64,000 nt of DNA from an uncultured Bacteroidales bacterium (GTDB lineage Bacteria; Bacteroidota; Bacteroidia; Bacteroidales; UBA932), in NCBI GenBank assembly GCA_900316955.1, contig ONEX01000005.1, positions 146,681-210,680 of the forward strand, read 5' to 3'. Numbering within the stretch: the first letter of the stretch is position 1; every line of letters starts with the position of its first letter. Under the pieces are notes generated by a model. That model saw only the letters and a program-made list of their open reading frames with translations, was not told the DNA's origin and made no database searches. Of this stretch, positions 1,418-27,710 are shown piece by piece. The position numbers were made by a program, and so were the translations under genes.

Positions 1418-1423
1418 ACGAAC

Positions 1424-3787
1424 ATGCAAGTATTGAAGTTTGGAGGCACCTCCGTGGCCTCTTCCGAAGCGATGCTTCAGGTAGTCGATATCGTCCGCAA
1501 GGCCCTCGAGGAAGACCGCACCATCGTAGTCTCCTCGGCCGTGAGCGGCTGTACGGACGCGCTGATCGAGACCGGCCGGAAGGCGGCCGCCCGCGACGAG
1601 TCCTACAAGACGCTCATCGACGACCTCCGGAAGCGCCATTACACGATCATCGGCGAACTGCTGCCGGAAGGATACCGGGAGCGGACGGCCGCTTCCGTGG
1701 ACAAACTGTTCGAATCACTGGAGGGCATCACCTACGGCGTGTATCTCCTGGGCGAACTGAGCCAGGCGAGCCTGGAAGCCATCGAGAGCTTCGGCGAGCT
1801 GTTCTCCACGACCATCCTGACGGACAAGTTCCTGTCGCTGGGCATCACTTGCCAGTGGCTCGACGCCCGGACCTTCGTCCAGGTGCGCGACGGGGAGGTG
1901 GACGAGCCGGAAACCTACGCCCGCGTGGCCAAGACCGTGAATTCGAACCCGCACGTGGAACTGTTCGTCGTCCCGGGCTTCATCGCCACGGACGGGAACG
2001 GCCGCGTGACGACACTCGGCCGCGGCGGCTCCGACTTCACGGCCTCGCTCGTGGCCGTGGGCATCCACGCCCGCCGCGTGGAGATCTGGACCGACGTCCC
2101 GGGCATCATGACCGCCAATCCGAAGATCGTCCCGACCGCCCGCCCGATTCCGAACATCTCCTACCGGGCGGCGCAGGAACTGTCCCATTTCGGAGCCAAG
2201 GTCATCTATCCGCCGACCATCCAACCCGTTGTGGACGAGGGAATTCCGATCATCGTCAAGGATACCTTCCACCCGGAAGAGCCGGGTACGCTCGTGGAGC
2301 GGAACCCGCCGCGCGTGCGGGACGGCATGATCGGCATCGCCCATTCCGACCACATAGCCCTCATCTCCCTGGAGGGCAGCGGCATGGTGGGCGTTCCCGG
2401 CTTCTCGTCGCGCCTGTTCGACGCGCTGAGCCGGAAGGAGATCAACATCATCCTCATCACCCAGGCCTCTTCGGTCCATTCGATGTGCATCGCCATCGCC
2501 GAGCAGGACGCCGAGGCGGCCCGGGAGGCGGCCGATGCGTGCTTCGCCTATGAAATCTCGCTGGGCCGGCTGAATCCGCTCAAGGTGGAGACGGGCTTCT
2601 CGCTCGTGTGCCTGATCGGGGACGACATCCTCGGTCACAGCGGCGCCACGGGCCGGATGCTGGCCGCCCTGGGGGCGCACAGCGTCCCGGTCCGCGCCAC
2701 GGCGCAGGGCTCGTCCGAGCGGAACATTTCCGTCATCGTCCCTTCCGTCCGGGCCGAGGTGGCCATCCGGGCCATCCACCGGGAGTTCTTCGACAAGTGG
2801 AGCAACAAGGTCATCCACCTGTTCATCGCCGGTTACGGACGCGTGGGCAAGGCGCTGGTCGAGATGCTTTCCGAGAATGCGGCCTCCATCGCGAAGCGCT
2901 CCGGCAAGGAGCTGCGCGTGTGCGGTCTGGCGAACAGCCGGAAGTATGTGATCGACACCGAAGGCATCGACCTCACGAAGGCGCAGGAGCGCCTGGACGC
3001 CGGCAAGCCGGGCGCCGGCTACATCGACGCCGTAGCGGAACTGACGCTGGAGAATTCCATCTTCGTGGACTGCACCGCCAGCGGGGAGATCGGCTTCCGC
3101 TATCCCGCCCTGTTCCGCAGCGGCTACAGTGTGGTGGCCTGCAACAAGATTCCGTTCTCGGGTACGTATGCGCAATTCAAGGCGCTGCAGGAGCAGGCCC
3201 ATAAGGCCGGCGTTTCCCTGCGGTACGAGACCACGGCCGGCGCCGCCCTGCCGGTGCTCGTCACGCTGGACCGCGTGGTCCAGTCCGGCGACACCCTGGT
3301 CCGCATGGACGCGGTCCTTTCCGGAACGCTCAACTACCTGATGGACAATTACAAAGGAACGGGATTCGACGAGCTGGTGGAAGACGCCCGCATCAAGGGC
3401 TACACCGAGCCGGACCCGAACATCGACCTCAGCGGCAAGGACGTCCTCCGCAAGATCCTGATCCTGAGCCGCCAGACGGGCATTCCGCTGGAGGAGTCCC
3501 AGGTGACCCTCGAGCCCATCCCGGCCGACATCGCCGACCGCTATGCCGCGGCCAGCGCCAAGGGCCTGAAGCTGCGCTATGTCGCCTCCGTCGATGCCGA
3601 AGGCCACGCGACCGTGGGCCTGCAGGAAGTCGGCCCGGACAGCCCGCTCTATGCCCTGAAGGGCACGGACAACGCCATCATGATCACGACCGGCGACTAT
3701 CCTTCGCCGATGCTCATCCAGGGCGCCGGCGCCGGCACGCGCCAGACGGCCGGCGGTCTGCTGAACGACATCATGCTGACGCTGTAG
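1424..3787 (+). CDS. thrA: bifunctional aspartokinase / homoserine dehydrogenase
   Basis: 787 residues with two fused enzymes. The aspartokinase part begins with KFGGTSVAS (residues 5-13) and carries the LGRGGSDF nucleotide/aspartate motif near residue 197. Regulatory ACT-type sequence follows (about 300-450). The homoserine dehydrogenase starts with a Rossmann FIAGYGRVGKA motif near residue 465 and contains the ECT-like FVDCTASGEIG and KGYTEPDPNIDLSG motifs. It phosphorylates aspartate and reduces aspartate semialdehyde to homoserine, feeding both threonine and MetX. The ACT region implies feedback control, probably by threonine as in E. coli ThrA (family knowledge). It is a little shorter than the usual ~810-820 residues. 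Confidence 0.95.
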   Translation: MQVLKFGGTSVASSEAMLQVVDIVRKALEEDRTIVVSSAVSGCTDALIETGRKAAARDESYKTLIDDLRKRHYTIIGELLPEGYRERTAASVDKLFESLEGITYGVYLLGELSQASLEAIESFGELFSTTILTDKFLSLGITCQWLDARTFVQVRDGEVDEPETYARVAKTVNSNPHVELFVVPGFIATDGNGRVTTLGRGGSDFTASLVAVGIHARRVEIWTDVPGIMTANPKIVPTARPIPNISYRAAQELSHFGAKVIYPPTIQPVVDEGIPIIVKDTFHPEEPGTLVERNPPRVRDGMIGIAHSDHIALISLEGSGMVGVPGFSSRLFDALSRKEINIILITQASSVHSMCIAIAEQDAEAAREAADACFAYEISLGRLNPLKVETGFSLVCLIGDDILGHSGATGRMLAALGAHSVPVRATAQGSSERNISVIVPSVRAEVAIRAIHREFFDKWSNKVIHLFIAGYGRVGKALVEMLSENAASIAKRSGKELRVCGLANSRKYVIDTEGIDLTKAQERLDAGKPGAGYIDAVAELTLENSIFVDCTASGEIGFRYPALFRSGYSVVACNKIPFSGTYAQFKALQEQAHKAGVSLRYETTAGAALPVLVTLDRVVQSGDTLVRMDAVLSGTLNYLMDNYKGTGFDELVEDARIKGYTEPDPNIDLSGKDVLRKILILSRQTGIPLEESQVTLEPIPADIADRYAAASAKGLKLRYVASVDAEGHATVGLQEVGPDSPLYALKGTDNAIMITTGDYPSPMLIQGAGAGTRQTAGGLLNDIMLTL

Positions 3788-9233: not shown

Positions 9234-9998
9234 ATGAGAATCACCTTGCTGCAGACGGCTCCGGAGTGGGGGAATCCCGCCCGAAGCCGCGAGGATGCCC
9301 GCCGGATGCTGATGGGCACCCTGAAGACGGACCTCGTCGTCCTTCCCGAAATGTTTTCCACCGGATTCGTCACGGACCCTGTCGGGGTGGCCGAGGACGG
9401 AGAAGGGGACAGCCTCCGCTGGATGCAGGACTATGCCCGCAGCAAGGGCTGCGCCGTGGCGGGCAGCGTGTCCACGCAGGTGGACGGCACGTACCGCAAC
9501 CGTTTCTATTTCGTGTTCCCGGACGGCCATTACCAGTATTATGACAAGCATCACCTCTTCACTTATGCGGGCGAGCATCACCGGTACACCGCCGGCGAGG
9601 AGCGGGTGGTGGTGGAGCACGCCGGGTTCCGGATCCTCCTCCAGGTGTGCTACGACCTCCGGTTCCCCGTCTTCGCCCGGAACCGCCTGGTGGACGGCAA
9701 GCCGGACTACGACCTGATCCTGTATGTCGCCAGCTGGCCGCAGCAGCGGATCGACGCCTGGGATTCCCTCCTGAAGGCCCGCGCCATCGAGAATGTGTGC
9801 TATGTGGCGGGTGTGAACCGGGTGGGGAAGGACCCCGGAAACCTGTATTCCGGACATACCAGTTTGTACGGCCCGCGCGGAGAATTGCTTTCAATTTGTA
9901 AGGAAGGACGCATCGACATTATCGAATCTGAATTGAAACGCCCTGTCCTGGACCAATTCCGTCAGTCGTTCCCGGCCCTGTTGGATGCTGATTATTAA
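9234..9998 (+). CDS. carbon-nitrogen hydrolase, omega-amidase (YafV/Nit2) type
   Basis: 254 residues of the nitrilase superfamily with the complete Glu-Lys-Cys triad: E39 in LPEMF, K105 in DKHHLF and C139 in QVCYDLRFPVF. The DKHHLF...AGEHHRYTAG context matches YafV-type omega-amidases, which hydrolyse 2-oxoglutaramate or 2-oxosuccinamate to the 2-oxoacid and ammonia (metabolite repair after glutamine transamination). It is cytoplasmic. The start codon follows the -7 box by 3 nt. No gene partner is evident, and the BCAA leader begins about 75 bp downstream. Confidence 0.88.
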   Translation: MRITLLQTAPEWGNPARSREDARRMLMGTLKTDLVVLPEMFSTGFVTDPVGVAEDGEGDSLRWMQDYARSKGCAVAGSVSTQVDGTYRNRFYFVFPDGHYQYYDKHHLFTYAGEHHRYTAGEERVVVEHAGFRILLQVCYDLRFPVFARNRLVDGKPDYDLILYVASWPQQRIDAWDSLLKARAIENVCYVAGVNRVGKDPGNLYSGHTSLYGPRGELLSICKEGRIDIIESELKRPVLDQFRQSFPALLDADY

Positions 9999-10017: not shown

Positions 10018-10049
10018 TTGTTTTTTAAAAACTAATTACCCATCTTTGC
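10018..10049 (+). promoter_or_regulatory. promoter of the branched-chain amino acid operon
   Basis: A TTG at 10018-10020 is separated by 20 nt from CATCTTTGC (10041-10049), one mismatch to the TAnnTTTG consensus. Transcription would start near 10054, 20 nt before the leader peptide. Confidence 0.65.
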
Positions 10050-10073
10050 TCTCGGTAACGATTTGAAACTCCT

Positions 10074-10124
10074 ATGAACAGCGTACTCGTCATTGCCCTT
10101 GTCCTCATTCTCCTTGTCAAATAG
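10074..10124 (+). CDS. ilv operon leader peptide
   Basis: A 16-codon open frame encoding MNSVLVIALVLILLVK. Eleven of the 16 residues are the end products of the downstream operon (four Val, five Leu, two Ile). The stop codon TAG (10122-10124) lies 2 nt before the 5' arm of the antiterminator. This composition and position are those of a classical attenuation leader peptide: ribosomes stall on Val/Leu/Ile codons when charged tRNA is scarce. It is too short for ordinary gene callers. Confidence 0.88.
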   Translation: MNSVLVIALVLILLVK

Positions 10125-10126
10125 AC

Positions 10127-10199
10127 GCGGACTGGAAAGGCATGACGGTATAAAGATAACATCAACCCCTTCCAGTCCGCACTGGAAGGGGTGTTTTTT
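10127..10199 (+). promoter_or_regulatory. transcription attenuator of the ilv-leu operon
   Basis: Two mutually exclusive helices can be read. Terminator: CCCCTTCCAGT (10166-10176) pairs perfectly with ACTGGAAGGGG (10181-10191) around a CCGC loop, followed by TG and six T. Antiterminator: GCGGACTGGAA (10127-10137) pairs perfectly with TTCCAGTCCGC (10170-10180), consuming the 5' arm and loop of the terminator; two further G-C pairs follow a bulge. A ribosome that reaches the leader stop codon would cover the 10127 arm and allow termination, while stalling upstream frees it. ilvD starts 11 nt after the T-run. Confidence 0.88.
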
Positions 10200-10209
10200 A
10201 TAGTAGTGT

Positions 10210-12042
10210 ATGAAACATCCTTTCAGAAGCAGCGTCACCTTCGAGGGACGTAGGATGGCAGGCGCCCGGGCTCTCTGGGCGGCGGCGGGTATGAAACCGG
10301 AACAGGTGGGCAAGCCTGTGATTGCGGTCGTGAATTCCTTCACGCAGTTCGTACCCGGACACACGCACCTGCACGAGGCCGGCCAGCTGGTCAAGGCCGA
10401 GATCGAGCGCCTCGGCTGCTACGCGGCCGAATTCGACACCATCGCCGTGGACGACGGCATCGCCATGGGCCACGACGGCATGCTGTATTCCCTTCCTTCC
10501 CGCGAAGTCATCGCAGACAGCGTCGAGTACATGGTCAACGCCCACAAGGCCGATGCGATGGTCTGCATCAGCAACTGCGACAAGATCACGCCCGGCATGC
10601 TCATGGCCGCCATGCGGCTGAACATCCCGGCGGTCTTCGTCTCCGGCGGCCCGATGGAGGCCGGCGTGCTCGGCGACCGGAAACTGGACCTGATCGACGC
10701 GATGGTCCAGTCGGCGGACACCTCCCTGTCCGACGCCGAGGTCGCGAAGATCGAGGCGGCCTCCTGCCCGGGCTGCGGCTGCTGCTCCGGCATGTTCACG
10801 GCCAATTCGATGAACTGCCTGACCGAGGCCATCGGCCTCGCCCTTCCAGGCAACGGGTCGGTGCTCGCCACCCACAAGAACCGGAAGGAACTCTTCCGCA
10901 AGGCGGCCGCCCTCGTCGTGGAGAATGCCTGGAAGTACTATCGGGACGGTGACGAACGCGTCCTGCCCCGCAGCATCGCGACCCGCGCGGCGTTCCTGAA
11001 CGCCATGGCGCTGGACATCGCGATGGGCGGATCCACGAACACGGTCCTGCATCTGCTCGCCGTGGCCCAGGAGGCCGGCGTGGACTTCACGATGGCCGAC
11101 ATCGACGCACTCTCCCGGAAGGTCCCCTGCATCTGCAAGGTGGCCCCCAATACCGCGAAATACCATGTCCAGGATGTGAACCGCGCCGGCGGCGTCATCT
11201 CCATCCTCCGCGAACTGGCCGTGGCCGGTCTCATCGACACCACCCTTTACCGGGTGGATGGATCCTCCCTGTCGGAGACGATGGACCGCTATGCCATCCT
11301 GTCGGAGCAGGTGACGGACGAGGCCCTTCAGCTGTACCGCAGCGCCCCTGCCGGACGGTTCTCGACCCAGCTTGGCTCCCAAGAGACCTATTACAAGGAA
11401 CTGGACACCGACCGGGAGAACGGTTGCATCCGGTCCGTCGCCCACGCCTACACGAAGGACGGCGGACTGGCGGTGCTCCGGGGGAACATCGCGGCCGACG
11501 GCTGCGTCGTGAAGACGGCCGGCGTGGACGCTTCCATCTGGAAGTTCACCGGCCCGGCGAAGGTCTTCGACTCCCAGGAAGCGGCCTGTGACGGCATCCT
11601 GAGCGGGAAAGTGAAGAGCGGCGACGTCGTCGTGATCACCTACGAAGGCCCCCGCGGCGGTCCCGGCATGCAGGAGATGCTGTACCCGACCTCCTACCTG
11701 AAGTCGGTCCATCTGGGCAAGGAATGCGCCCTGCTGACCGACGGCCGTTTCAGCGGCGGCACCTCCGGCCTGTCCATCGGCCACATCTCGCCCGAGGCGG
11801 CGGCCGGCGGCGCCATCGGCCTGGTCCGGGACGGCGACCTCATCGAAATCGACATCCCCGCCCGTTCCATCCGCGTCCTTCTCCCCGAGGACGAGCTCGA
11901 GCGCCGGCGGCAGGAGGAACTCGCCCGCGGCGACAAGGCTTTCACGCCGCCGTTCCGCGTGCGCGAGGTCTCCAAGAGTCTGAAAGTGTACGCCCGGATG
12001 GTCAGCTCCGCCGACAAGGGCGCCGTGCGGGTCATTGATTGA
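10210..12042 (+). CDS. ilvD: dihydroxy-acid dehydratase
   Basis: 610 residues, full length for IlvD. It dehydrates 2,3-dihydroxy-isovalerate and 2,3-dihydroxy-3-methylvalerate to the 2-oxoacid precursors of Val/Leu and Ile. Iron-sulfur ligands are visible in SNCDKITPG and in the [11 protein letters not shown] motif. The C-terminal [16 protein letters not shown] signature is intact. It is the first structural gene after the attenuator and is followed after 20 bp by ilvB. The ATG at 10210 gives the expected [13 protein letters not shown]... N-terminus. Confidence 0.97.
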
Positions 12043-12062: not shown

Positions 12063-13766
12063 ATGATTACAGGTTCGGATGCATTGTGGCAGTCCCTCAT
12101 CGAAGAGGGCGTGGATACCGTCTTCGGGTATCCCGGCGGGCAGATTATGCCCGTGTACGACAGCCTGTGCGCTTATAAGGACCGTGTCCGCCATATCCTG
12201 GTGCGTCACGAGCAGGGAGCCATCCACGCGGCGCAGGGATTTGCCCGCGTGAAGGGCGATCCCGGCGTGGTGATCGTCACCTCCGGTCCCGGCGCGACCA
12301 ACGTCATTACCGGCGTCCATGACGCGATGACGGACTCCACCCCCGTGGTGGTCATCACCGGGCAGGTTTCCTCCGCCGCCCTGGGCACGGACGCCTTCCA
12401 GGAGGCCGATGTCATCGGCCTGACCGGCCCTATCAGCAAGTGGAACTACCAGATCCGCTCGGCGGACGAGGTGGCGTGGGCCGTGGCCCGGGCTTTCTAC
12501 ATCGCCCGGAGCGGCCGTCCCGGCCCTGTGGTCCTGGATTTCACCAAGGACGCGCAGGTGGGCCTGACGGACTTCAAATACGAGAAATGCAATTTCATCC
12601 GGAGCTACGTTCCCGACCCGAAGATCTCGGAAGTGGCCCTGAACAAGGCGGTCGCCCTCCTGAACGAGGCGGAGCGCCCCTTCGTCGTGTACGGCCAGGG
12701 CGTGGTCCTGGGCCATGCGGAGGAGGAGCTGAAGGCCTTCCTCGAGAAGGGGGACATCCCGGCGGGATCCACCCTCCTGGGCCTCAGCGCCTTGCCTTCG
12801 GATTTCCCGCTCTACCGCGGCATGATCGGCATGCACGGCAACGTGGCTCCGAATATCCTGACGAACACCTGTGACGTGCTGGTGGCCGTCGGCATGCGGT
12901 TCGACGACCGCGTGACCGGCACGGTCTCCACCTACGCGCGTCAGGCGAAGGTCATCCACATCGACATCGACACCTCCGAGATCGGGAAGATCATTCCCGT
13001 CGAGGTGGGTCTCCGCGGCGATGCCAAGAAGGTCCTCAAGGTCCTGACGGAGCGGATGAAAGCGCGGAAGCACCCCGCTTGGAACGCGAGTGTCGAGCGT
13101 TGCGATGCCGTGGAGAAGGAAAAGGTCATCGACCCGGAAGTGCACCCCGGCTCCGGCATGCTCCGGATGGGCGAGGTGGTGGACCGCGTGGTCCGCGCTT
13201 CCGACGAGAAGGCCGTCGTCGTGACGGACGTGGGCCAGAACCAGATGATGGGCGCCCGCTATTCCCGCTTCAAGCGCTCCCGGAGCTTCATTTCCTCCGG
13301 CGGCCTCGGCACGATGGGCTTCGGCCTGCCCGCCGCCATCGGCGCCAAGGTGGCCGAGCCGGGACGCCCCGTGTGCTGCTTCGTCGGCGACGGCGGCATC
13401 CAGATGACGATGCAGGAGTTCGGGACCATCATGCAGGAGCAGGTGGGCGTGAAGATCGTCCTGCTGAACAACAACTGGCTGGGCAACGTCCGCCAGTGGC
13501 AGGAGCTCTTCTTCGGCTGCCGCTACTCGGAGACCCGGATGCTGAACCCGGACTACGCGATGATCGCCCGCGCCTACGGCATCCCCTGCGTCACCGTGGA
13601 GAAGCGGGAGGAGCTGGATGCGGCCCTCGAGGCGATGTTCGCCGACGACAAGCCCTTCCTCCTGGACGTCCACGTCCTGGAAGAGGGGATGGTAATGCCC
13701 ATGGTGCCGCCCGGAAAGGGCATCCACCAGATCATGATTACGGAAAACGAATGGTACAATGGATAG
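12063..13766 (+). CDS. ilvB: acetolactate synthase, large (catalytic) subunit
   Basis: 567 residues with the three ThDP-enzyme domains. The N-terminal Pyr domain has GYPGGQIMP and the conserved glutamate in VRHEQGAIHAAQGFAR. The middle FAD-like domain has GMRFDDRVTG. The C-terminal PP domain has the metal-ThDP motif VGDGGIQM...LNNNWLG. It condenses two pyruvates, or pyruvate with 2-oxobutyrate. It overlaps ilvN by 8 bp, consistent with coupled synthesis of the two subunits. Confidence 0.97.
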   Translation: MITGSDALWQSLIEEGVDTVFGYPGGQIMPVYDSLCAYKDRVRHILVRHEQGAIHAAQGFARVKGDPGVVIVTSGPGATNVITGVHDAMTDSTPVVVITGQVSSAALGTDAFQEADVIGLTGPISKWNYQIRSADEVAWAVARAFYIARSGRPGPVVLDFTKDAQVGLTDFKYEKCNFIRSYVPDPKISEVALNKAVALLNEAERPFVVYGQGVVLGHAEEELKAFLEKGDIPAGSTLLGLSALPSDFPLYRGMIGMHGNVAPNILTNTCDVLVAVGMRFDDRVTGTVSTYARQAKVIHIDIDTSEIGKIIPVEVGLRGDAKKVLKVLTERMKARKHPAWNASVERCDAVEKEKVIDPEVHPGSGMLRMGEVVDRVVRASDEKAVVVTDVGQNQMMGARYSRFKRSRSFISSGGLGTMGFGLPAAIGAKVAEPGRPVCCFVGDGGIQMTMQEFGTIMQEQVGVKIVLLNNNWLGNVRQWQELFFGCRYSETRMLNPDYAMIARAYGIPCVTVEKREELDAALEAMFADDKPFLLDVHVLEEGMVMPMVPPGKGIHQIMITENEWYNG

Positions 13767-14319
13767 CGAAGTGAGAGAATACACGGTGACCATCTACACC
13801 GAGAACCAGATCGGCCTCCTGGCGCAGATCACGAACGTGTTCACGCGCCACGGCCTGAGCATCTGGAGCCTGTCCGCGGGCGCCACCTCCATGGAGGGCG
13901 TCCACAACATCACCATCGTGACCTCCGGCCTGGAGAAGAAGGTCCGCGAGAGCGTCCAGCAGATCGAGAAGCGCGTGGACGTGATCAAGGTCTTCTTCTA
14001 CACGTCTGACAAGATCGTGTACCGCGAGCTGTGCCTGTACAAGGTGCCCACCCCGGCCCTCCTCGAGTACGGCGACATCGAAACCCTGCTGAACCGCTAT
14101 CACGCGCGCATCGTGGAGATGAACAAGGTGTTCACGGTCATCCAGAAAACCGGCCTGTCCGACGAGACGGCCGCCCTGCATGACGACCTCAAGCCCATCG
14201 GCGTGCTGCAGTTCGTGCGTTCGGGCCGCATCGCGGTCTCCCGCGCCGAGCAAGAGCCCGTCTTCAAGTTCCTGAAGAAACGGGAAAGGGAAAGAAATCA
14301 ACAATTAAACAACAAATAG
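13759..14319 (+). CDS. ilvN: acetolactate synthase, small regulatory subunit
   Basis: 186 residues, the long bacterial form. The N-terminal ACT domain begins YTVTIYTENQIGLLAQITNVF (about 7-27) and contains the LSAGAT region where valine binds in homologues. The second half (YKVPTPALLEYG onward) is the C-terminal regulatory domain. It activates IlvB and gives feedback inhibition by valine (family knowledge). It ends 2 nt before ilvC. Confidence 0.93.
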   Translation: MDSEVREYTVTIYTENQIGLLAQITNVFTRHGLSIWSLSAGATSMEGVHNITIVTSGLEKKVRESVQQIEKRVDVIKVFFYTSDKIVYRELCLYKVPTPALLEYGDIETLLNRYHARIVEMNKVFTVIQKTGLSDETAALHDDLKPIGVLQFVRSGRIAVSRAEQEPVFKFLKKRERERNQQLNNK

Positions 14320-14321
14320 AC

Positions 14322-15371
14322 ATGGCAAAGATCAATTTTGGCGGTGTCGACGAGAACGTCGTGACCCGCGAGGAATTCACCCTGGAACATGCGCGCGAAG
14401 TCCTGAAGGACGAAACCATCGCCGTCATCGGCTACGGCGTGCAGGGCCCCGGACAGTCCCTGAACCTGAAAGACAACGGTTTCAAGGTCATCGTCGGCCA
14501 GCGCAAGGGCAAGACCTATGACAAGGCCGTCGCCGACGGCTGGGTCCCGGGCGTAGACCTCTTCGAGATCGAGGAGGCTTGCGAGAAGGGCACCATCATC
14601 CAGTTCCTGGTTTCCGACGCGGCCCAGATCGCGATCTGGCCCACGGTGAAGAAGCATCTCACCCCGGGGAAGGCCCTCTATTTCTCCCACGGCTTCGGCA
14701 TCACCTACAAGGAGCGCACGGGCATCGTCCCGCCCGCGGACGTGGACGTGATCATGGTCGCCCCGAAGGGCTCCGGCACCTCCCTGCGCCGGCTCTTCCT
14801 GCAGGGCCGCGGCGTGAACTCCTCCTACGCCGTGTATCAGGACGCCACCGGCCGCGCCCTCGAGCGCACGCTCGCGCTGGGTATCGGCGTGGGTTCCGGC
14901 TACCTGTTCGAGACCGACTTCAAGCGTGAGGTCTATTCCGACCTCACCGGTGAGCGCGGCACCCTGATGGGCGCGATCCAGGGCATCCTGTCCGCCCAGT
15001 ACGAGGTGCTCCGCGAGCACGGCCACAGCCCGTCCGAGGCCTTCAACGAGACCGTCGAGGAGCTCACCCAGTCCCTGATGCCGCTCTTCGCCGAGAAGGG
15101 CATGGACTGGATGTACGCGAACTGCTCCACCACCGCCCAGCGCGGCGCGCTGGACTGGATGGGCCCGTTCCACGACGCCACCAAGCCCGTGTTCGAGAAG
15201 CTGTACCAGCGGGTGGCCAGCGGCGAGGAGGCCCAGGTCTCCATCGACGCGAACTCCAAGCCGGACTATCGCGAGGGCCTGGAGAAGGAACTGAAGGCGC
15301 TCCGCGAGAGCGAACTCTGGCGCACCGGCGCCGCCGTCCGTAAACTGCGTCCCGAGGAGATCGACCGATGA
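14322..15371 (+). CDS. ilvC: ketol-acid reductoisomerase
   Basis: 349 residues. The N-terminal Rossmann domain contains [18 protein letters not shown], with GQRKGKTYD at the cofactor-specificity loop. The C-terminal knotted domain contains the metal-binding DLTGERGTL and EELTQS segments. It isomerises and reduces acetolactate and acetohydroxybutyrate. The sequence is the Bacteroidota form with a short C-terminus (class I size). The NADPH/NADH preference cannot be read with certainty. leuA overlaps its end by 4 bp. Confidence 0.96.
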
Positions 15372-16861
15372 GCGACCGGGTGTACATATTCGACACCACG
15401 CTCCGCGACGGGGAACAGGTCCCGGGATGCCAGTTGAACACTGTGGAGAAGATCCAGGTCGCCAAGGCCCTGGAGCTCCTCGGCGTGGACGTCATCGAGG
15501 CCGGTTTCCCGATCTCCAGCCCGGGTGATTTCAACTCGGTGGTGGAGATCTCCAAGGCGGTGACCTGGCCCACGGTCTGCGCGCTGTCGCGGGCCGTGGA
15601 GAAGGACATCGACATGGCCGCGGAGGCGCTCAAGTACGCCAAGCGGGGCCGGATCCACACCGGAATCGGCACGTCCGACTCGCACATCCGGTACAAGTTC
15701 AACTCCACCCGGGAGGAAGTGCTGGAGCGGGCCGTCCGCGCCGTCAAATACGCGAAGAAGTACGTCGAGGACGTGGAGTTCTACGCGGAGGACGCCGGCC
15801 GCACCGACAACGAGTTCCTCGCCCGCGTAGTGGAGGCCGTGATCAAGGCGGGCGCGACCGTCGTGAACATCCCCGACACGACGGGCTACTGCCTGCCGGA
15901 AGAGTTCGGCGCCAAGATCAAGTACCTGATGGAACACGTGGACGGGGTCCATAAGGCCATCATCTCCACGCACTGCCACAACGACCTGGGCATGGCGACG
16001 GCCAACACGATGGCCGGCCTGCTGAACGGCGCCCGCCAGTGCGAGGTCACGATCAACGGCATCGGCGAAAGGGCGGGGAACACCGCCCTGGAGGAGATCG
16101 CGATGATCCTGAAGGCCCATCACGGGATTCCGCTGGAGACGAACATCAACACCAAGCGCATCTATCCCACGAGCCGGCTCGTGTCGTCCCTGATGAACAT
16201 GCCGGTGCAGCCGAACAAGGCCATCGTGGGCAAGAACGCCTTCGCCCATTCGTCCGGCATCCACCAGGACGGCGTCTTGAAGAACGCCGAGACCTACGAG
16301 ATCATCGACCCGAAGGACGTGGGCATCGACACGAATTCCATCGTCCTGACGGCCCGCAGCGGCCGGGCGGCGCTCAAGTACCGCCTGGAAGTGAACGGCG
16401 TGAAATTGGACGAGAACAAGCTGGACGAGGTGTACGAGCAGTTCCTCCGCCTTGCCGACAGCAAGAAGGAGATCCACGACGATGACATCCTGATGCTCGC
16501 CGGGGCCGACCGGGCCTCCGCGCGCCGCATCAAGGTGGACTGGCTCCAGGCGACGAGCGGCATCGGCGTGAAGCCGGTGGCCTCCGTGGGACTGGACATC
16601 GCCGGGGAGAAGTTCGAGGCGGCCGCGACCGGCAACGGCCCGGTGGACGCCGCCATCAACGCGCTGCGGCAGATCGTGAAGCGTCATCTCACCATCAACG
16701 AATACACCATCCAGGGCGTCTCCAAGGGGTCCGACGACTGCTGCAAGGTCCATATGCAGGTGGAGAACGAGGGACGGGTGTACTACGGCTTCGGCGCTTC
16801 GACCGACATTGTGACGGCCTCCATCGAGGCTTATGTGGATTGTATCAACAAGATTGTATGA
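15368..16861 (+). CDS. leuA: 2-isopropylmalate synthase
   Basis: 497 residues. A DRE-TIM barrel starts at [13 protein letters not shown] (about 9-21) and has the metal-binding HCHNDLGMA motif near residue 200. NGIGERAGN follows, then the [14 protein letters not shown] subdomain and a C-terminal LeuA regulatory domain (about 370-497) for leucine feedback. It condenses acetyl-CoA with 2-oxoisovalerate. ATGA overlaps occur at both ends (ilvC, leuC). Confidence 0.95.
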
Positions 16862-18252
16862 ACACCCTCTTTGACAAGATCTGGGACGCGCATGTCGTCC
16901 AGCACGTGGAAGGCGGGCCCGACCAGCTGTACATCGACCGGCTCTACTGCCATGAGGTGACGAGCCCGCAGGCTTTCGACGGTCTGCGCGAGCGGGGCAT
17001 CCGCTGCCTGCGTCCGGAAAAGATTATCTGCATGCCGGACCACAACACCCCGACCGAGGGCCAGGAGCGGCCCATCGAGGATCCGGTATCCAAGAAACAG
17101 GTGGATGCCCTCGCGGCCAACGCCGCCGAGTTCGGGCTCACGCACTACGGGATGATGGACCCGAACAACGGCATCATCCACGTCGTGGGGCCGGAGAAGG
17201 GCCTTTCCCTGCCCGGCATGACCATCGTCTGCGGTGACTCGCACACGTCCACGCATGGCGCCGTCGGTGCCGTGGCGTTCGGCATCGGCACCTCCGAGGT
17301 GGAGATGGTCCTGGCGTCGCAGTGCATCCTCCAGCAGAAGCCCAAGTCGATGCGCATCCGCATCGAGGGCGAACTCGGGAAGGGCGTGACCGCCAAGGAC
17401 ATGGCGCTTTTCCTGATGAGCAAGCTCACCACCAGCGGCGCGACGGGCTACTTCGTGGAGTACGCCGGTTCCGCGGTCCGGGCCCTGTCCATGGAAGGCC
17501 GCCTCACCCTCTGCAACCTGTCCATCGAGATGGGCGCCCGCGGCGGTTTCATCGCTCCGGACGAGACCACCTTCGCCTACCTCAAAGGCCGCGACTATGC
17601 GCCGAAGGGGGAGGACTGGGACAAGGCCGTCGCTGTCTGGAAGGAGCTCCGCAGTGACGCGGACGCCGTCTTCGACCGGGAAGTCCTCTTCGACGCGGCC
17701 GAGATCACCCCGATGGTCACCTACGGCACCAACCCCGGCATGGGCATCGCCATCACGGGCTACTTGCCCACGCTGGACGATATCCCTGTCGAGGCCCATG
17801 CCTCCTTCTGCAAATCCCTGAAATACATGGGCTTCCGTCCGGGTGACATGCTCCTCGGCAAGCCCGTGGACTACGTCTTCCTGGGCGCCTGCACGAACGG
17901 ACGCATCGAGGATTTCCGGGCGTTCGCGTCCATCGCCGCCGGCCGCAAGAAGGCGCCGGGCGTCGTGGCGTGGCTCGTCCCCGGCTCCTGGAAGGTCCGC
18001 CGCCAGATCGAGGAAGAAGGCCTGGACAAGATCCTGGAAGCCGCCGGCTTCGAGATCCGCCAGCCCGGCTGTTCCGCCTGCCTGGCGATGAACCCGGACA
18101 AGGTTCCCGCCGGCAAGTACTGTGTCTCCACGAGCAACCGGAATTTCGAGGGTCGCCAGGGCCCCGGTTCCCGGACGCTCCTCGCCAGCCCGCTCACGGC
18201 GGCCGCCGCGGCCGTCACCGGCTACATCACCGACCCCCGCGTACTGCTATGA
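16858..18252 (+). CDS. leuC: 3-isopropylmalate dehydratase, large subunit
   Basis: 464 residues, aconitase family. The [4Fe-4S] cysteines lie in [11 protein letters not shown] and [11 protein letters not shown], and the [11 protein letters not shown] motif near residue 125 is intact. With LeuD it isomerises 2-isopropylmalate to 3-isopropylmalate. The ATG at 16858 is chosen because it gives [14 protein letters not shown], the canonical N-terminus, and overlaps the leuA stop by 4 bp; an in-frame start 18 nt upstream would extend into leuA. Confidence 0.96.
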
Positions 18253-18839
18253 AACAGAAATTCGACATCATAGAAAGCACCTGCGTCCCGCTCCCGCTCG
18301 AGAACGTGGACACGGACCAGATCATTCCCGCCCGCTTCCTGAAGGCCACCACGCGGGACGAACGCTTCTTCGGCGACAACCTGTTCCGCGACTGGCGTTA
18401 CCAGCCGGACGGCACGCCGGATCCGGACTTCGTCCTGAACGATCCGAAGTACGGCGGCGAGATCCTCGTCGCGGGCCGGAACTTCGGCTCCGGCTCCAGC
18501 CGCGAGCACGCGGCCTGGGCCATCGCCGGCTATGGGTTCAAAGTGGTGATTTCCAGTTTCTTCGCGGATATCCACAAGAACAACGAGCTGAACAATTTTG
18601 TCCTGCCGGTGGTCGTGACCCCGGATTTCCTGGAGGAACTCTTCGCCTCCATCGAGGCGGATCCTGCGACGAAGGTCCGGGTGGACGTCCCGAACCAGAC
18701 CGTGACGAACCTCGCCACGGGCCGGAGCCAGTCCTTCGAACTGAACGCGTACAAGAAGTACTGCCTGATGAACGCGCTGGACGACATCGACTACCTGCTC
18801 CTGCAGAAGGACAAGATCGAAGCCTACGAGAACCGATGA
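18249..18839 (+). CDS. leuD: 3-isopropylmalate dehydratase, small subunit
   Basis: 196 residues with the LeuD signatures [14 protein letters not shown] (about 19-32) and [16 protein letters not shown] (about 78-93). It is the swivelling partner of LeuC. The start overlaps the leuC stop (ATGA), as does its own stop with the next gene, indicating tight translational coupling. Confidence 0.96.
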
Positions 18840-20362
18840 TCGAAATCCTGGACACAACCCTCCGTGACGGCGAGCAGACGGCCGGCGTCTCGTTCAACCC
18901 GGACGAGAAACTGGCCATCGCGCGCCTGCTCCTGGAGGAAATGAAGGTCAACCGGATCGAGGTGGCCTCGGCGCGGGTGTCCCGCGGCGAGCAGGAGGCT
19001 TTCGCCAAGATCTGCGCGTGGGCTTCCACCTGCGGCAAGCTCGGCGCCGTCGAGGCGCTCGGCTTCGTGGACGGCGGCCTGTCCGTGGACTGGATCCGTT
19101 CGGCCGGGGGACAGGTGATGAACCTCCTCACGAAGGGCTCCCTCCGCCATGTGACCGGCCAGCTCCGGAAAACGCCGGAGGAGCACCTGGACGACATCCT
19201 CCGGGACATCCGCATCGCCGTCTCCAAGGGCCTGGAGGTCAACGTGTACCTCGAGGACTGGTCCAACGGGATGACGGACTCGCCGGAGTATGTGTTCTTC
19301 CTGGTGGACGCCCTGAAGGACGCCCCCGTGAAGCGGATCATGCTGCCGGACACCCTGGGCATCCTGGATCCGAAGCGCACGTGGGAGTACTGCCGGACGA
19401 TGGTGGAACGCTATCCTTCCCTCCATTTCGATTTCCACCCCCACAACGACTACGACCTCGCCGCGGCGAACGCCTTCGAGGCGGTCCTCGCCGGCGTGAA
19501 GGGCCTGCACACCACCGTGAACGGGCTGGGGGAGCGGACCGGCAACCTGCCCGTGTCCAGCGCCATCGGCATCCTCAATGACCACCTCAAGGTGGAGAAC
19601 ACCCTGGACGAGAGCCGTCTGATGCATGTGTGCCGCTATGTGGAGACGATTTCCGGCGTCCGGATCCCTTCGAACAAGCCCCTCGTGGGCGAGTTCGTCT
19701 TCACGCAGACGAGCGGGGTCCATGCCGATGGCGACCGCAAGGGCGGGCTGTACCAGAACGCCCTCCTGCCGGAGCGCTTCGGCCGCCACCGCCACTACGC
19801 CCTCGGGAAGACCAGCGGCAAGGCGAACATCGTCAAGAACCTGGAATCCCTGGGCATCAACCTCACGCCCGAGCAGATGAAGCAGGTCACGGCCCGCGTC
19901 GTCGAGCTCGGCGACAAGAAGGAAAGCCTGACCCCGGAGGACCTTCCGTTCATCGTGGCGGATGTCCTGAAAGGGGATGTCTCCACGACGGCCCCGGACC
20001 GGATCCACATCATCAATTACAGCCTGCAGCTCGCCCGCGGCATGCGCCCCATCGCGAACATCAGGATCGACATCGACGGAACCGAGTACGAGGAGGCGGC
20101 TGCCGGCGACGGCCAGTACGACGCCTTCATGAAGGCGCTCTGGATCATCTACGACCGGCTGGGCCGGCGGCATCCCCGCCTGACGGACTACGTCGTGAAG
20201 ATCCCGCCCGGGGGCAAGACCGACGCCCTCGTGGAGACGACCATCTCCTGGGACTGGCAGGGCAAGGGCTTCAAGACCCGGGGCGTGGACTCCGACCAGG
20301 CCGAAGCGGCCATCAAGGCCACGGTCAAGATGTTGAACTTAATCGAAAACAACCTGATATGA
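18836..20362 (+). CDS. second isopropylmalate/citramalate synthase-family enzyme
   Basis: 508 residues, DRE-TIM family: [13 protein letters not shown] at residues 4-16, [13 protein letters not shown] as the metal motif, NGLGERTGN, and a LeuA-type C-terminal regulatory domain (about 380-508, [21 protein letters not shown]). It is clearly paralogous to leuA four genes upstream, but the substrate-contact region differs ([15 protein letters not shown] near residue 40). It could be a (R)-citramalate synthase feeding the LeuCD/LeuB steps to make 2-oxobutyrate for isoleucine, or a second isopropylmalate synthase. No ilvA is in the window, which fits the first idea but does not prove it. Confidence 0.85.
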
Positions 20363-21408
20363 GACTCAAGATTGCAAAACTCCCCGGCGACGGCATCGGC
20401 CCGGAAGTCGTGGACCAGGCCGTCAAGGTCGTGGATGCCGTGTGCGCCCGTTTCGGGCATGAGGTTTCTTACACCTACGGGTATGTAGGCGCCTGCGCCA
20501 TCGACCGTTTCGGTGACGCCTATCCGGCCGAGACCCATGCCTTGTGCATGGAAAGCGACGCCGTCCTCTTCGGCGCGGTGGGCGACCCCAAGTACGACAA
20601 CGACCCCACGGCGAAAGTGCGTCCGGAGCAGGGCCTGCTGGCCATCCGGAAGCAGCTGGGCCTGTATGCGAACCTCCGTCCGGTGGAGACCTTCAAGTCC
20701 CTCGTGGACAAGTCCCCGCTGAAGACCGAGCTCGTGGACGGGGCCGATTTCCTGTGCATCCGGGAACTCACCGGCGGCATGTACTTCGGCGAGAAGGGCC
20801 GGAAGGACAATGGAAACACGGCCTATGACACCAACATCTACAGCCGCGCCGAGGTGGAGCGCATCCTGAAGCTCGCCTTCGAGTACGCCGGACGCCGCCG
20901 CAAGCACCTCACCGTGGTGGACAAGGCCAACGTGCTGGAATCCTCCCGCCTGTGGCGCCAGATCGCGCAGGAGATGGAGCCGGCCTATCCGGACATCCAG
21001 GTGGACTACATGTTCGTGGACAACGCCGCCATGCAGCTCATCCGCTGGCCGAAGTTCTTCGACGTCCTGGTGACCGAGAACACCTTCGGCGACATCCTCA
21101 CGGACGAAGCCAGCTGCATCAGCGGGTCGATGGGCCTGCTGGCGTCGGCCTCGGTAGGGGAGCACACCTCCCTGTTCGAGCCCATCCACGGCTCCTACCC
21201 GCAGGCGGCCGGCAAGAACATCGCGAACCCCGTCGCGGCCATCCTGTCGGCGGCGATGATGTTCGAGTACGCCTTCGGCCTGATGGACGAGGGCAAGGCC
21301 ATCCGCGAGGCCGTCGCCGCTTCCCTGGAGGCCGGCGTGACGACCGAGGACCTCGGCGGCAGCTATTCCACCTCCGCGGTGGGCGATTGGATCGCATCGA
21401 AAATATAG
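20359..21408 (+). CDS. leuB: 3-isopropylmalate dehydrogenase
   Basis: 349 residues. The N-terminus [15 protein letters not shown], the ELTGGMYFG substrate segment, [20 protein letters not shown] and the [14 protein letters not shown] metal/isopropylmalate signature are all present. It oxidatively decarboxylates 3-isopropylmalate with NAD. LeuB can act on 3-methylmalate in the citramalate route as well, relevant to the gene directly upstream. It overlaps that gene by 4 bp; ilvE follows after 6 bp. Confidence 0.96.
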
Positions 21409-21414
21409 AACGAT

Positions 21415-22455
21415 ATGGAACAGATAGACTGGAAAACCTTAGGCTTTGACGCCTACCGGACCCGCACTGTCGTCGTCTCCCACTTCAAGGACGGCAAGTG
21501 GTCCACTCCCGAATCGACGGAGACCTTCTACTTCACGTTCGACCCCTTCGCGCAAGTCTTCCACTACGCGATTTCCTGCTTCGAGGGCCTGAAGGCCTTC
21601 CGGCAGAAGGACGGACGCGTCGCGATGTTCCGTCCCGACCAGAACGCCGCCCGCCTCCAGCGGACCGCGGACTACCTGGGCATGCCCTGCCCGTCCCCGG
21701 AAATGTTCTTCCAGATGTGCGAAGCCTGCATCCGCGGCAACATGGAGTTCCTGGCGCCGTATGGCCTGGGGGCGTCCATGTACCTGCGCCCGCTGCTGGT
21801 GGGCATGCATCCCCAGATGCAGCTCGTGCCGTATCCGGAGGCCGTTTTCGCCGTGATGTGCGCCCCCGTGGGCTCCTACTACGGCGCACACCTGAAGTCC
21901 TGCGCGGCCGTCATCCCGGGCAACTATGACCGGGCGGCGCCGAAGGGCTCCGGCAGCTACAAGATCGGCGCGAACTACGCGAACACCTTCAAGCCCTACA
22001 AGTTCGCCCACGAACAGGGCTATGCGGAGCTCCTGTACCTGAATTCCTCCACCCGCGAGTTCGTCGACGAGTTCGGCTCGTCCAACTTCTTCGGCATCAA
22101 GGGGAACAAGTACATCACCCCGCTCTCCGACAGCGTCCTTCCGTCCATCACGAACAAGACCCTGCAGCAGGTGGCCATCGACCTGGGCATGGAAGTGGAG
22201 AAGCGGCCGGTCCCGCTCGAGGAGCTGGCTACGTTCGAGGAAGTGGGCGGCTGCGGCACCGCCGTGGTCATCACCCCGCTCTCGCACATCGACATGAAGC
22301 CGGTGCTCGAGGAGCCGGAAGTCTCCCGCGAATTCCGCTACTGCCCCGACGGCGAGGTGGGCCCGAAGTCCACGGCCCTGTACAAGCGCATCCGCGCCAT
22401 CCAGGACGGCGAATATCCCGACGAGCACGGCTGGTGCCGGTTCGTGGAGGTGTAG
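21415..22455 (+). CDS. ilvE: branched-chain amino acid aminotransferase
   Basis: 346 residues, fold type IV PLP enzyme. The PLP lysine is K183 in GSYKIGANYA. EFGSSNFFGI and a C-terminal GCGTAVVITPL motif correspond to the phosphate-binding and specificity loops of class II BCATs. It performs the last step to Val, Leu and Ile. It is the final gene of the operon: a strong terminator begins about 80 bp after the stop. Confidence 0.95.
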   Translation: MEQIDWKTLGFDAYRTRTVVVSHFKDGKWSTPESTETFYFTFDPFAQVFHYAISCFEGLKAFRQKDGRVAMFRPDQNAARLQRTADYLGMPCPSPEMFFQMCEACIRGNMEFLAPYGLGASMYLRPLLVGMHPQMQLVPYPEAVFAVMCAPVGSYYGAHLKSCAAVIPGNYDRAAPKGSGSYKIGANYANTFKPYKFAHEQGYAELLYLNSSTREFVDEFGSSNFFGIKGNKYITPLSDSVLPSITNKTLQQVAIDLGMEVEKRPVPLEELATFEEVGGCGTAVVITPLSHIDMKPVLEEPEVSREFRYCPDGEVGPKSTALYKRIRAIQDGEYPDEHGWCRFVEV

Positions 22456-22532
22456 CCTGCGCAGATGCGTGGATGGACCTGGCACTGACTGGTTTACAAC
22501 TAATTGAAAATTAGACAGTTACAATTTATGTG

Positions 22533-22575
22533 GTTCCGGGTCTCCATATTAGGGGAGACCTGGAACTCTCTTTTT
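22533..22575 (+). terminator. terminator of the ilv-leu operon
   Basis: GTTCCGGGTCTCC (22533-22545) pairs with GGAGACCTGGAAC (22554-22566), 13 bp with one G-T wobble, followed by TCTC and five T. It ends the 12-kb BCAA transcript. Confidence 0.82.
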
Positions 22576-24658: not shown

Positions 24659-26511
24659 AACGCCTGATCTTCCTCCCCATGCTCTGCTGGGCGGCCTTGC
24701 TCGTCGCTCAGGAGAAGTATAACGCCATCATCCTGGAGGATGAGGAATCCTTCGTGATGTCCGCGCCCACGTCCGGTACCTACAACGTCCGGAGAACGGT
24801 CCGCGTGTTCAACGACGCGGGCTTGGACGAGGCCGTGTTCCAGGAGTATACGGACCAGTTCCGCAGCCTTTCATCCTTCAAGGGAACGCTGGAACGTGAG
24901 AACGGCAAGCCCCTGAAGCTCAAGAAGGACGACCTGGTCATGGTTTCCGTCGCTTCCGGCCTCGCCGAGGACGGCTTTGTCCATGGCTACCAACCTTCAT
25001 CGACATATCCTTTCACCGTTACCTACGAATACACGATCACCTACCGGAAAGGCGTCGCTTCCTTCCCGACCTTCTTTCCGGTATCCAGCGAGAAAGTCAA
25101 GGTGGAGAAGGCCTCCTACACCTTCCAGGTTCCTTCCGGCACGAAAATCAATTGCGTCACGTCCAAGGTGGGCGATGTGCGGAAAGAAACCGGCAAGGCC
25201 GATACCTACCGCTGGGAAGTTCCTGTCTTCGAGGGCTATACCGCCGAGATGCTCATGCCCTCCTGGCGGGAGATCGTGCCCTATGTCTTCGCCTGCCCGG
25301 CGGATTTCACCTATGCCGGCATGAACGGCAGCCAGGCCACCTGGGAACATGTGGGCGCCTGGGTCCATGGACTCCGCGAAGGGACGGACGACCTCCCGGA
25401 ATCCTTCCGGGCCGAACTGAAGGAGATGACAGCCAAGGCCGGTTCCGATTTGGAGAAGATCCGGATTCTGTATGACTACCTCCGCGAGCATACGCGCTAC
25501 GTGAGCATCCAGCTGGGCATCGGCGGTTACAAGCCTTTCCCGGCCAGTCAGGTCCATAAGACCGGTTTCGGCGACTGCAAGGGCCTGTCCAACTACATGC
25601 AATCCATGCTGGACGCCGTTGGCATCCCGTCCTACTACACGCTCGTGAACACGAACCGGGCCGATTTCCTGCCCGGCTATTCCGGCGTCGGCCAGATGAA
25701 CCACGTAATGCTGTGCGTCCCGCTTCCCGAGAAGAAAGACACCCTCTGGCTGGAATGCACGAACCCGGCCGTGCCGCTGGGCTACCGGCATGAGGACGTG
25801 GCCGGCCACGAAGTGGTCGTCACGCAGGCCGGCGGCGGAATCCCGGTCCGGGTACCCGCCTATGCCGACACCCTGAGCCGGGACGTCTGCGAACTGGATC
25901 TGGAACTCGCTCCTGACGGGGCCGCGAAGGCGACCGTGAAGCGGAGCCTCTACCTGGACGAGACGGAAAGCTGGCTCTCCATCCGTGACTGGAAGCCCGA
26001 CACTCGGCGGAGCCGCCTTACGTCCGGGCTCACCGTCCAGCCGCAGGAAGTGACGCTCACGGGCGTGCAGGACAACTTCCGGGACTATGACGGTCCGGAT
26101 TTCTGCCCATGGATGGAAGTGGATTACACCTTCGACACCCGCCAATACGCGACCACCGGGAAGGACCGCCTGTTCGTGCCGGTCAATCCCCATCCCAAGG
26201 GCGCCTCGCTCCAGCGGGGAAAGCGGCAGAACGACCTTGTATGCAAGCAGGGCGGCATCGAACGCGACCGTATCTGGATCCACCTGCCCGCCGGCTACAA
26301 GCCGGAAAGCCTTCCCAATCCGGTCTCATTGGATACGGAATGGGGTACCTTCACCTCATCCTGTGAACTGAAGGACGGTACCGTCGTGGTTTTCCAGGAA
26401 TTCATTACCAAGCGCTTCCGGGAGCCGGCGGAACGCTTTGACGACTTCCGCACTTTCGTGCGGGCCGTCAACAAAGCGTATCAGGCGAATCTGGTGCTGG
26501 TCAAAGAATAA
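24655..26511 (+). CDS. exported DUF3857 / transglutaminase-like protein, catalytic residues intact
   Basis: 618 residues with a short signal peptide (LIFLPMLCWAALLVAQ). The DUF3857 domain spans about 30-230. The transglutaminase-like core (about 255-370) has the Cys in FGDCKGLSNYM (C308), His in MNHVMLCV (H350) and an acidic residue in WLECT (E367), a usable Cys-His-Glu set. It is probably periplasmic; the substrate is unknown. It is a clear paralogue of the upstream gene and is cotranslated with it via ATGA. Confidence 0.83.
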   Translation: MKRLIFLPMLCWAALLVAQEKYNAIILEDEESFVMSAPTSGTYNVRRTVRVFNDAGLDEAVFQEYTDQFRSLSSFKGTLERENGKPLKLKKDDLVMVSVASGLAEDGFVHGYQPSSTYPFTVTYEYTITYRKGVASFPTFFPVSSEKVKVEKASYTFQVPSGTKINCVTSKVGDVRKETGKADTYRWEVPVFEGYTAEMLMPSWREIVPYVFACPADFTYAGMNGSQATWEHVGAWVHGLREGTDDLPESFRAELKEMTAKAGSDLEKIRILYDYLREHTRYVSIQLGIGGYKPFPASQVHKTGFGDCKGLSNYMQSMLDAVGIPSYYTLVNTNRADFLPGYSGVGQMNHVMLCVPLPEKKDTLWLECTNPAVPLGYRHEDVAGHEVVVTQAGGGIPVRVPAYADTLSRDVCELDLELAPDGAAKATVKRSLYLDETESWLSIRDWKPDTRRSRLTSGLTVQPQEVTLTGVQDNFRDYDGPDFCPWMEVDYTFDTRQYATTGKDRLFVPVNPHPKGASLQRGKRQNDLVCKQGGIERDRIWIHLPAGYKPESLPNPVSLDTEWGTFTSSCELKDGTVVVFQEFITKRFREPAERFDDFRTFVRAVNKAYQANLVLVKE

Positions 26512-26875
26512 AAAAAGGCGGGGCCGTAAGCCGCTTTCTGTTTTTGAATCTGCCATTTATCTTCGCAACCTACCCCCCGGCATCGGACGGGCCGCCCTCA
26601 TCTGCCGGTATATTTGGTCTTGCAGGCCTGCCGCCGTACCCGCCGTACGTCGCCGCACGGCGTCGTGGGCTCTTACCCCGCGTTTTCACCCTTACCCTTG
26701 CGGGCGGTTTTTTTCTGTTACGGACGGAAAAGATTACTCCCTTCTGTGCTTTCCACAGCCAGGCGCCCTGCCCTGTGCGGACTTTCCTCACCGGTTTCCC
26801 GGCGCGGCAGATCGTCCCGCCTTTTTCGGTTGCAAAGGTACGAAAAAAGTTGTACTTTTGTCCGATTAAAGTGAG
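26512..26875. other. 364-bp intergenic region, no convincing gene
   Basis: Short open frames exist on both strands but are Pro/Arg-rich and look like chance frames in GC-rich DNA. It does hold signal-like elements: TATCTTCGC (26558-26566), TATATTTG (26609-26616), a CGCCGT/ACGGCG hairpin (26641-26662), and a run of seven T at 26708-26714 after a small GC stem. A short RNA between 26620 and 26714 is possible but weakly supported. The promoter of the next gene is at its 3' end. Confidence 0.45.
26830..26860 (+). promoter_or_regulatory. promoter of glutaminyl cyclase - thiamin receptor unit
   Basis: TTG at 26830-26832, 20-nt spacer, TACTTTTG at 26853-26860, start codon 16 nt later. No other consensus promoter is visible between here and the TonB receptor at 27711. 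Confidence 0.72.
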
Positions 26876-27628: not shown

Positions 27629-27629
27629 A

Positions 27630-27707
27630 AACTCGGGGTATCGGGCCAGGTGGCCCGGTTGAGAGCATACCCGTGAACCTGATGCGGTTCATACCGCCGG
27701 AGGAAAG
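27630..27707 (+). promoter_or_regulatory. TPP (thiamin pyrophosphate) riboswitch
   Basis: The conserved THI-element core is readable: CGGGGTATC (27634-27642), a GGGCCAGGTGGCCC-type variable stem, TGAGAG (27660-27665), and GAACCTGATGCGGTTCAT followed by ACCGCCGGAGGA (27675-27704). This matches the pyrimidine- and pyrophosphate-binding arms of TPP aptamers. The only good Shine-Dalgarno in the area, GGAGGA (27699-27704), lies inside the conserved 3' part of the aptamer, 6 nt before the ATG at 27711. Ligand binding would therefore hide it: translational control. No terminator hairpin is seen. Confidence 0.92.
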
Positions 27708-27710
27708 TAT

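Follow-up and report, generated by a model that had tools for sequence, protein, structure and literature searches.

In the ilv and leu attenuators of Escherichia coli and Salmonella, a leader peptide rich in the end products of the pathway precedes two mutually exclusive helices, an antiterminator and a terminator, and the stop codon of the leader lies at the antiterminator arm. Attenuators of ilvGMEDA, ilvBN and leu are named for both organisms in a passage of PMC1183508, and part of PMC3766115 distinguishes four specificities among the amino acid attenuators of Rfam, which may stem from gamma-proteobacteria and have undergone few transfers. For Bacteroidetes, a table row of PMC2864571 gives the Bacteroid-trp RNA (RF01692) as a predicted cis-regulatory RNA, an excerpt of PMC4833913 places leader genes 11–14 bp from structural genes, and a passage of PMC7366714 reports that long 5' UTRs of B. 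thetaiotaomicron hold small open reading frames reminiscent of leader peptides; the main text of the latter makes no mention of ilvD. The string 'Bacteroid' does not occur in PMC9413887, and in a 2021 survey of his genes in Bacteroidota a section refers to attenuation for enterobacteria only and does not contain the word 'leader'. Among the matches listed, no publication describes an ilvD attenuator from Bacteroidota; most subscription journals lie outside the coverage. The attenuator surveys by Vitreschak et al. (2004) and Lopatovskaya et al. (2010) are both said to touch Bacteroidetes/Chlorobi, so that attenuation in the phylum has probably been predicted before.

Here we describe a leader upstream of ilvD in an uncultured Bacteroidales bacterium, located in the window (the whole stretch of 64,000 nucleotides analysed). 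On comparative grounds, namely its parts and their geometry, conservation and covariation as obtained by computation, the leader is very probably (roughly 0.9) a classical ribosome-mediated transcription attenuator. It shares the above traits of the E. coli and Salmonella systems, and may also resemble them in a protector hairpin and in control by several amino acids, but differs in that it occurs in another phylum, has another type of promoter and employs one 16-codon leader for ilv and leu genes together; a sequence relationship was sought through Rfam only.

Leader, helices and operon

The features of the locus are listed in Table 1. Val, Leu and Ile occupy 11 of the 16 codons of MNSVLVIALVLILLVK (order V, L, V, I, L, V, L, I, L, L, V), and the antiterminator arms are perfectly complementary over 11 bp, extended in the fold by one mismatch and two further pairs. 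This frame, and its stop codon 2 nt 5' of an 11-bp antiterminator arm, had been described in a sequence-only reading of the locus, and direct reading of the sequence confirmed both. The terminator hairpin described there is also present, but the scan gives it a stem of 12 bp instead of 11; likewise, antiterminator and terminator do overlap, but share only seven bases of the terminator 5' arm (10170–10176) plus four loop bases.

Table 1. Features of the ilvD leader and the ilv-leu operon (positions in the window)
Feature	Position	Strand	Basis and details
Putative Bacteroidota-type promoter	10018–10048	+	-33 TTG 10018–10020; -7-like CATCTTTG 10041–10048
Leader peptide frame MNSVLVIALVLILLVK, 16 codons	10074–10124	+	ATG 10074, stop TAG 10122–10124; direct sequence reading
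Putative 1:2 protector hairpin	10083–10097 with 10139–10151	+	Minimum-energy folds
Antiterminator 5' arm GCGGACTGGAA	10127–10137	+	Starts two bases past leader stop
Antiterminator 3' arm TTCCAGTCCGC	10170–10180	+	Overlaps terminator 5' arm and loop
Intrinsic terminator	10165–10199	+	12-bp stem, 4-nt loop, six T; terminator scan; arms ACCCCTTCCAGT 10165–10176 and ACTGGAAGGGGT 10181–10192, loop CCGC, then G and TTTTTT 10194–10199
ilvD, dihydroxy-acid dehydratase, first structural gene	10210–12042	+	NCBIfam NF009103 and TIGR00110, above cut-off
ilvB, ilvN, ilvC, leuA, leuC, leuD, cimA-like, leuB, ilvE	12063–22455	+	NCBIfam, mostly above cut-off
Terminator-like hairpin at operon end	22532–22567	+	14 pairs, then T-rich tail

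In the minimum-energy fold of the window leader, the putative protector hairpin encloses the antiterminator 5' arm and partly pairs with it. Compared with shuffled sequences, folding gave z-scores of -3.89 for the leader, -5.41 for the antiterminator stretch and -3.78 for the terminator stretch. The -7-like element CATCTTTG has one mismatch to TAnnTTTG, which we take to be the -7 promoter element of Bacteroidota, and the window carries only this one-mismatch form. Among 43 related loci with the full leader anatomy (see below), an exact TAnnTTTG was found at most 90 nt 5' of the leader start in 36, versus 2 of 43 control stretches of 90 nt, each taken farther upstream. A sigma-70 promoter scan of the window returned none at the leader promoter region.

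The ten genes from ilvD to ilvE are separated by gaps of about 20 nt or less, with the starts of leuC, leuD, cimA and leuB set from family matches. The only + strand terminator-like sites of more than five pairs in the operon scan were the attenuator and the hairpin after ilvE; one further site had five pairs. Because the gaps are short and no internal + strand site exceeds five pairs, the genes look like one unit, as the sequence-only reading had proposed. The cimA-like gene has citramalate synthase NF042433 as its best match, below cut-off, and leuD was identified through Pfam Aconitase_C. Elsewhere in the window, Rfam detected a bacterial RNase P RNA, class A (26511–26823, - strand), and a TPP riboswitch (27624–27722, + strand).

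Occurrence among relatives and chance controls

Of 101 relative genomes, 40 (own included) had a match to IlvD, and 30 of these loci were used; a further 80 loci from named genomes were the best 80 among the matches listed. The closest named IlvD relatives among these matches place the genome in Bacteroidota. Removal of two duplicates from these 110 loci left 108, of which 86 belong to Bacteroidota or relatives of the source organism and 22 to others, assigned by record title or kinship. Three parts were sought in the upstream regions: a frame rich in branched-chain amino acid (BCAA) codons (8 or more of 12), a terminator no more than 120 nt away, and an antiterminator whose score exceeded a fixed threshold.

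The full three-part anatomy was present in 43 of the 110 upstream regions. Among the matches listed, it occurred in 43 of the 86 Bacteroidota or own-relative loci and in 0 of the 22 others, the frame with a terminator in 46 of 86 versus 0 of 22, and the frame, with or without the other parts, in 55 of 86 versus 1 of 22. Whether relatives retain the frame and the alternative pairing had been set beforehand as a refuting test, and both are conserved in these 43 of 86 loci, which favours the attenuator. The frame was present and the terminator or antiterminator criterion missed in 12 of the 86 (among the matches listed), several of which carry a T-tailed hairpin by eye. In 31 of the 86, again among the matches listed, the scan found no BCAA-rich frame; three of these (L048, L058, L061) have less than 200 nt of upstream sequence.

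The element is patchy, not universal, among the Bacteroidota and own-relative loci. The 16 loci of the same genus, own included, comprise eight with full anatomy, three with the frame only and five with none, and the ten loci titled Prevotella or Prevotellaceae among the matches listed comprise two, one and seven, respectively. Among named isolates, the complete set of parts was found in, for instance, Bacteroides graminisolvens (L035), Phocaeicola faecalis (L043) and Odoribacter laneus (L099). In one locus of the same genus (L027), an open frame reaches to 2 nt before ilvD, so that ilvD probably follows another gene there; this could account for the lack of a leader.

A wider set was drawn from 198 genomes of the phylum, of which 147 contained IlvD; 60 upstream pieces from 59 of these were scanned. 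Full anatomy was found in 6 of 29 pieces of the same class and 3 of 31 of the same phylum only, the frame with a terminator in a further one and two, and the frame alone in three and eight, respectively; the remaining 37 of the 60 had neither. Seven same-phylum loci (L219, L221, L223–L227) carry long hydrophobic BCAA-rich frames about 65–110 nt before ilvD, with no terminator detected.

Dinucleotide shuffles of the ilvD upstream regions yielded the frame alone 94 times, the frame with a terminator once and the full anatomy in 0 of 2200. Among 848 tiles of the window, three had full anatomy, all overlapping the ilvD leader. A terminator-like site by itself is weak evidence, with one found here versus 0.4 in shuffles of the same stretch. 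The codon ATT accounts for 93 of 132 Ile codons in the 43 leader frames, versus ATC for 149 of 162 in six operon genes of the window, a contrast at most suggestive of control-codon choice because the genomes differ in composition.

Covariation, folding and ribosome geometry

Alignment A1 and the multi-locus fold test comprised 43 of the 45 loci with frame and terminator; L082 and L092 were omitted because of doubtful antiterminators, while L055 and L081 were retained although they fall under the antiterminator cut-off. The 43 loci with full anatomy are a different set, which includes L082 and L108 and excludes L055 and L081.

The terminator is the best-conserved helix of the ilvD leaders: 96.3% of its cells in A1 are paired, changes on both sides occur in 12 of 12 pairs, and no shuffle of 500 was as high on any of five measures. 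In the antiterminator, 81.6% of the cells are paired and the covariation score is 0.222 versus 0.156, a value reached by 0 of 500 shuffles. Of 500 shuffles, 55 had as many doubly changed pairs as its six, and 10 matched its further pair types; sliding the helix by +1 gave more double-change cells (25 versus 23) and by +3 more double-change pairs (7 versus 6). Covariation in both helices, which the sequence-only reading had suggested looking for, is thus clear for the terminator and modest for the antiterminator, where it lies mostly above the controls, but not on every measure.

The 5' segment pairs better with the shared arm of its own locus than with those of others (sum -784 versus -607, sd 19). 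When shared arms were dealt among loci, the observed own pairing was never reached for either helix (0 of 10,000 permutations; relatedness of the sequences inflates this control and the shuffles), and own pairing fell within the best third in 29 of the 43 loci and not in 14. Folds from the leader start to the shared arm had a mean z of -1.82 against shuffles, with 29 of the 43 loci below -1 and several near or above 0; in these folds the codons of the leader pair with the antiterminator arm or close around it, consistent with a protector.

In 19 of 42 loci, the stop codon of the leader lies partly within the antiterminator arm, often as GTGAGAAAGG, a further difference from the E. coli and Salmonella systems. 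Assuming that a ribosome reaches 13 nt downstream, one standing at the leader stop would hide half or more of the arm in 38 of the 42 loci, while stalling would leave the arm free at a median of 10 of the 11 BCAA codons (n = 42 because L108 lacks a terminator row).

For the window locus we infer a start site, a translated leader, in vivo termination and a response to the charging of Val-, Leu- and Ile-tRNA, which would act together as follows. RNA polymerase would start near 10055, giving a leader RNA of about 145 nt, and a ribosome would begin the 16-codon frame. When Val, Leu and Ile are ample, the ribosome would proceed to the TAG and cover 10127–10137, so that the terminator helix (10165–10192) could form and transcription would end near 10199. 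When a branched-chain aminoacyl-tRNA is scarce, the ribosome would stall upstream, leaving 10127–10137 free to pair with 10170–10180; this pairing would block the terminator and allow transcription of the ilv-leu operon. If the leader is not translated, its codons may fold around the arm as a protector, which would favour termination.

Alternative explanations

The hairpin could be the ordinary terminator of an amidohydrolase-like gene (9234–9998), which lies upstream on the same strand and ends 166 nt before it, and the short frame a chance hydrophobic ORF. We consider this very improbable, since the frame and hairpins arose together in 0 of 2200 shuffles, 36 of 43 leaders have TAnnTTTG before them, and a check of 1–1.5 kb 5' of each locus (less at contig ends) revealed the amidohydrolase gene in no more than 6 of the 43 loci with full anatomy (own included), so that the element goes with ilvD. 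It is similarly hard to credit that MNSVLVIALVLILLVK is a working small membrane protein and that the hairpins answer another signal, such as a protein, a riboswitch ligand or a T-box tRNA: the peptide is hydrophobic and could span a membrane, but its siblings before other genes (see below) turn into runs of His, Trp, Thr or Met/Cys, which track the pathway and not hydrophobicity. Moreover, neither the window leader nor any of 20 related loci (18 with a BCAA frame) contained an Rfam match at threshold, and the T-box and riboswitch covariance models gave no match at gathering score in the same sequences.

The leader might also work mainly via translation, either by reinitiation at ilvD or by an effect on mRNA stability, and termination would then play a minor part; leader genes near structural genes are common and are read as reinitiation in an excerpt of PMC4833913. 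In the window, however, 85 nt and the terminator separate the leader stop from ilvD, and the terminator is the helix that is conserved best, which leaves this explanation only a slight probability. Ribosome-mediated transcription attenuation is the reading that we retain.

Related leaders before other amino acid genes

A model built from the ilvD leaders (R1), which scores the window leader with 51.5 bits, gave matches in 161 of 395 genomes of the phylum at E <= 0.01; these genomes are not counted as carrying attenuators because R1 is partly a generic terminator detector. The leaders of 37 matches were read, 34 of them mostly top-scoring and three weak matches in the own genome, and downstream proteins were named for twelve loci (ten plus two).

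Frames rich in Leu/Ile were found before leuA (gene named in L145 and L148; from the sequence start only in L146 and L147), in Ile before ilvE (gene named in L141 and L136; sequence start in L151), and in Trp before trpE (gene named in L121, L137, L143 and L153). BCAA frames also precede ilvD outside the order (L120 and L128, gene named). The Thr-rich MNFIITTTTISTTTTISSCRKVCL precedes an aspartokinase-homoserine dehydrogenase gene (thrA) that is cut by the locus end (L131), and the Met/Cys-rich MMPMCMMMCCCCAKSTCENVLHKL (L123, minus strand; R1 score 48.5 bits) precedes an O-acetylhomoserine sulfhydrylase gene (121–1410) and is possibly a sulfur amino acid attenuator. The Trp-, Thr-, Leu/Ile- and Ile-rich frames are accompanied by hairpins resembling those of the ilvD leaders. 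In eight others of the matches read (L132, L133, L134, L139, L140, L142, L149 and L150) no fitting leader was seen, and the three weak matches in the own genome were unconvincing.

In the own genome (C17; L155/L248), hisG is preceded by the His-rich MNRNDISKLHHHPVSMD and a T-tailed hairpin. At least three His in six codons were found before hisG in 25 of 30 loci, own included (with L277 unconvincing), drawn from 55 matching genomes, versus 24 of 900 shuffles. The predicted peptides of the sibling leaders match the product of the gene preceded (Trp, Thr, Leu/Ile, Ile, Met/Cys, His). No Thr-rich leader was found before either of the two aspartokinase-homoserine dehydrogenase genes of the own genome, among them the bifunctional one at 1418–3787 (+ strand) of the window, and the genome gave no match for a chorismate-binding enzyme.

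At gathering score, none of the relevant amino acid leader families of Rfam, which we take to be the Leu, His, Thr and Trp leaders and Bacteroid-trp (presumably a trp leader), matched the window, the 20 related loci or 18 R1-match loci; the latter yielded only two rRNAs and one SAM-II at that score. Bacteroid-trp (RF01692) is likewise a predicted cis-regulatory RNA of Bacteroidetes, but had no gathering-score match in the window, the 20 related loci or the scanned siblings, including the trpE leaders. Sub-threshold Rfam scores for microRNAs, rnk_leader, PyrR and others in the window leader lay far under the gathering scores and were rejected.

A core of the CCTTTCTC type is present in 34 of 45 ilvD-leader terminators and in 20 of 104 other terminators of the examined loci; these 20, L138 aside, are either attenuators, for the most part detected by R1 itself, or hairpins of leaders read on the opposite strand. 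The core therefore hints at common descent but is not independent evidence of it. We tentatively propose, as a possibility that falls somewhat short of probable, a phylum-wide and uncatalogued attenuator family with the core GTGAGAAAGG ... CCTTTCTCAC ... GAGAAAGGCTTTT, which recoding of the leader would have fitted to ilv, leu, thr and trp operons, plus separate His leaders before hisG. The gamma-proteobacterial origin with few transfers considered in PMC3766115 is not favoured by the present data.

Implications

The attenuation mechanism itself is textbook, and its prediction for the phylum is probably not new. It requires a ribosome close behind the polymerase, and Bacteroidota mostly start translation without Shine-Dalgarno pairing. 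Working attenuators of this kind would demand close coupling of transcription to translation in Bacteroidota. This coupling seems to be little studied: within a limited literature coverage, none of the titles listed for Bacteroidetes was dedicated to it, and nothing was found that contradicts the remark of the sequence-only reading that it is little documented in Bacteroidota. The main interest of the ilvD leader lies in its value as a test case for coupling in this phylum. The ilv leader family supplies regulatory annotation that is missing from Rfam, and the conserved ilv leader and its His, Leu, Thr and Trp siblings would be natural reporters for the coupling question.
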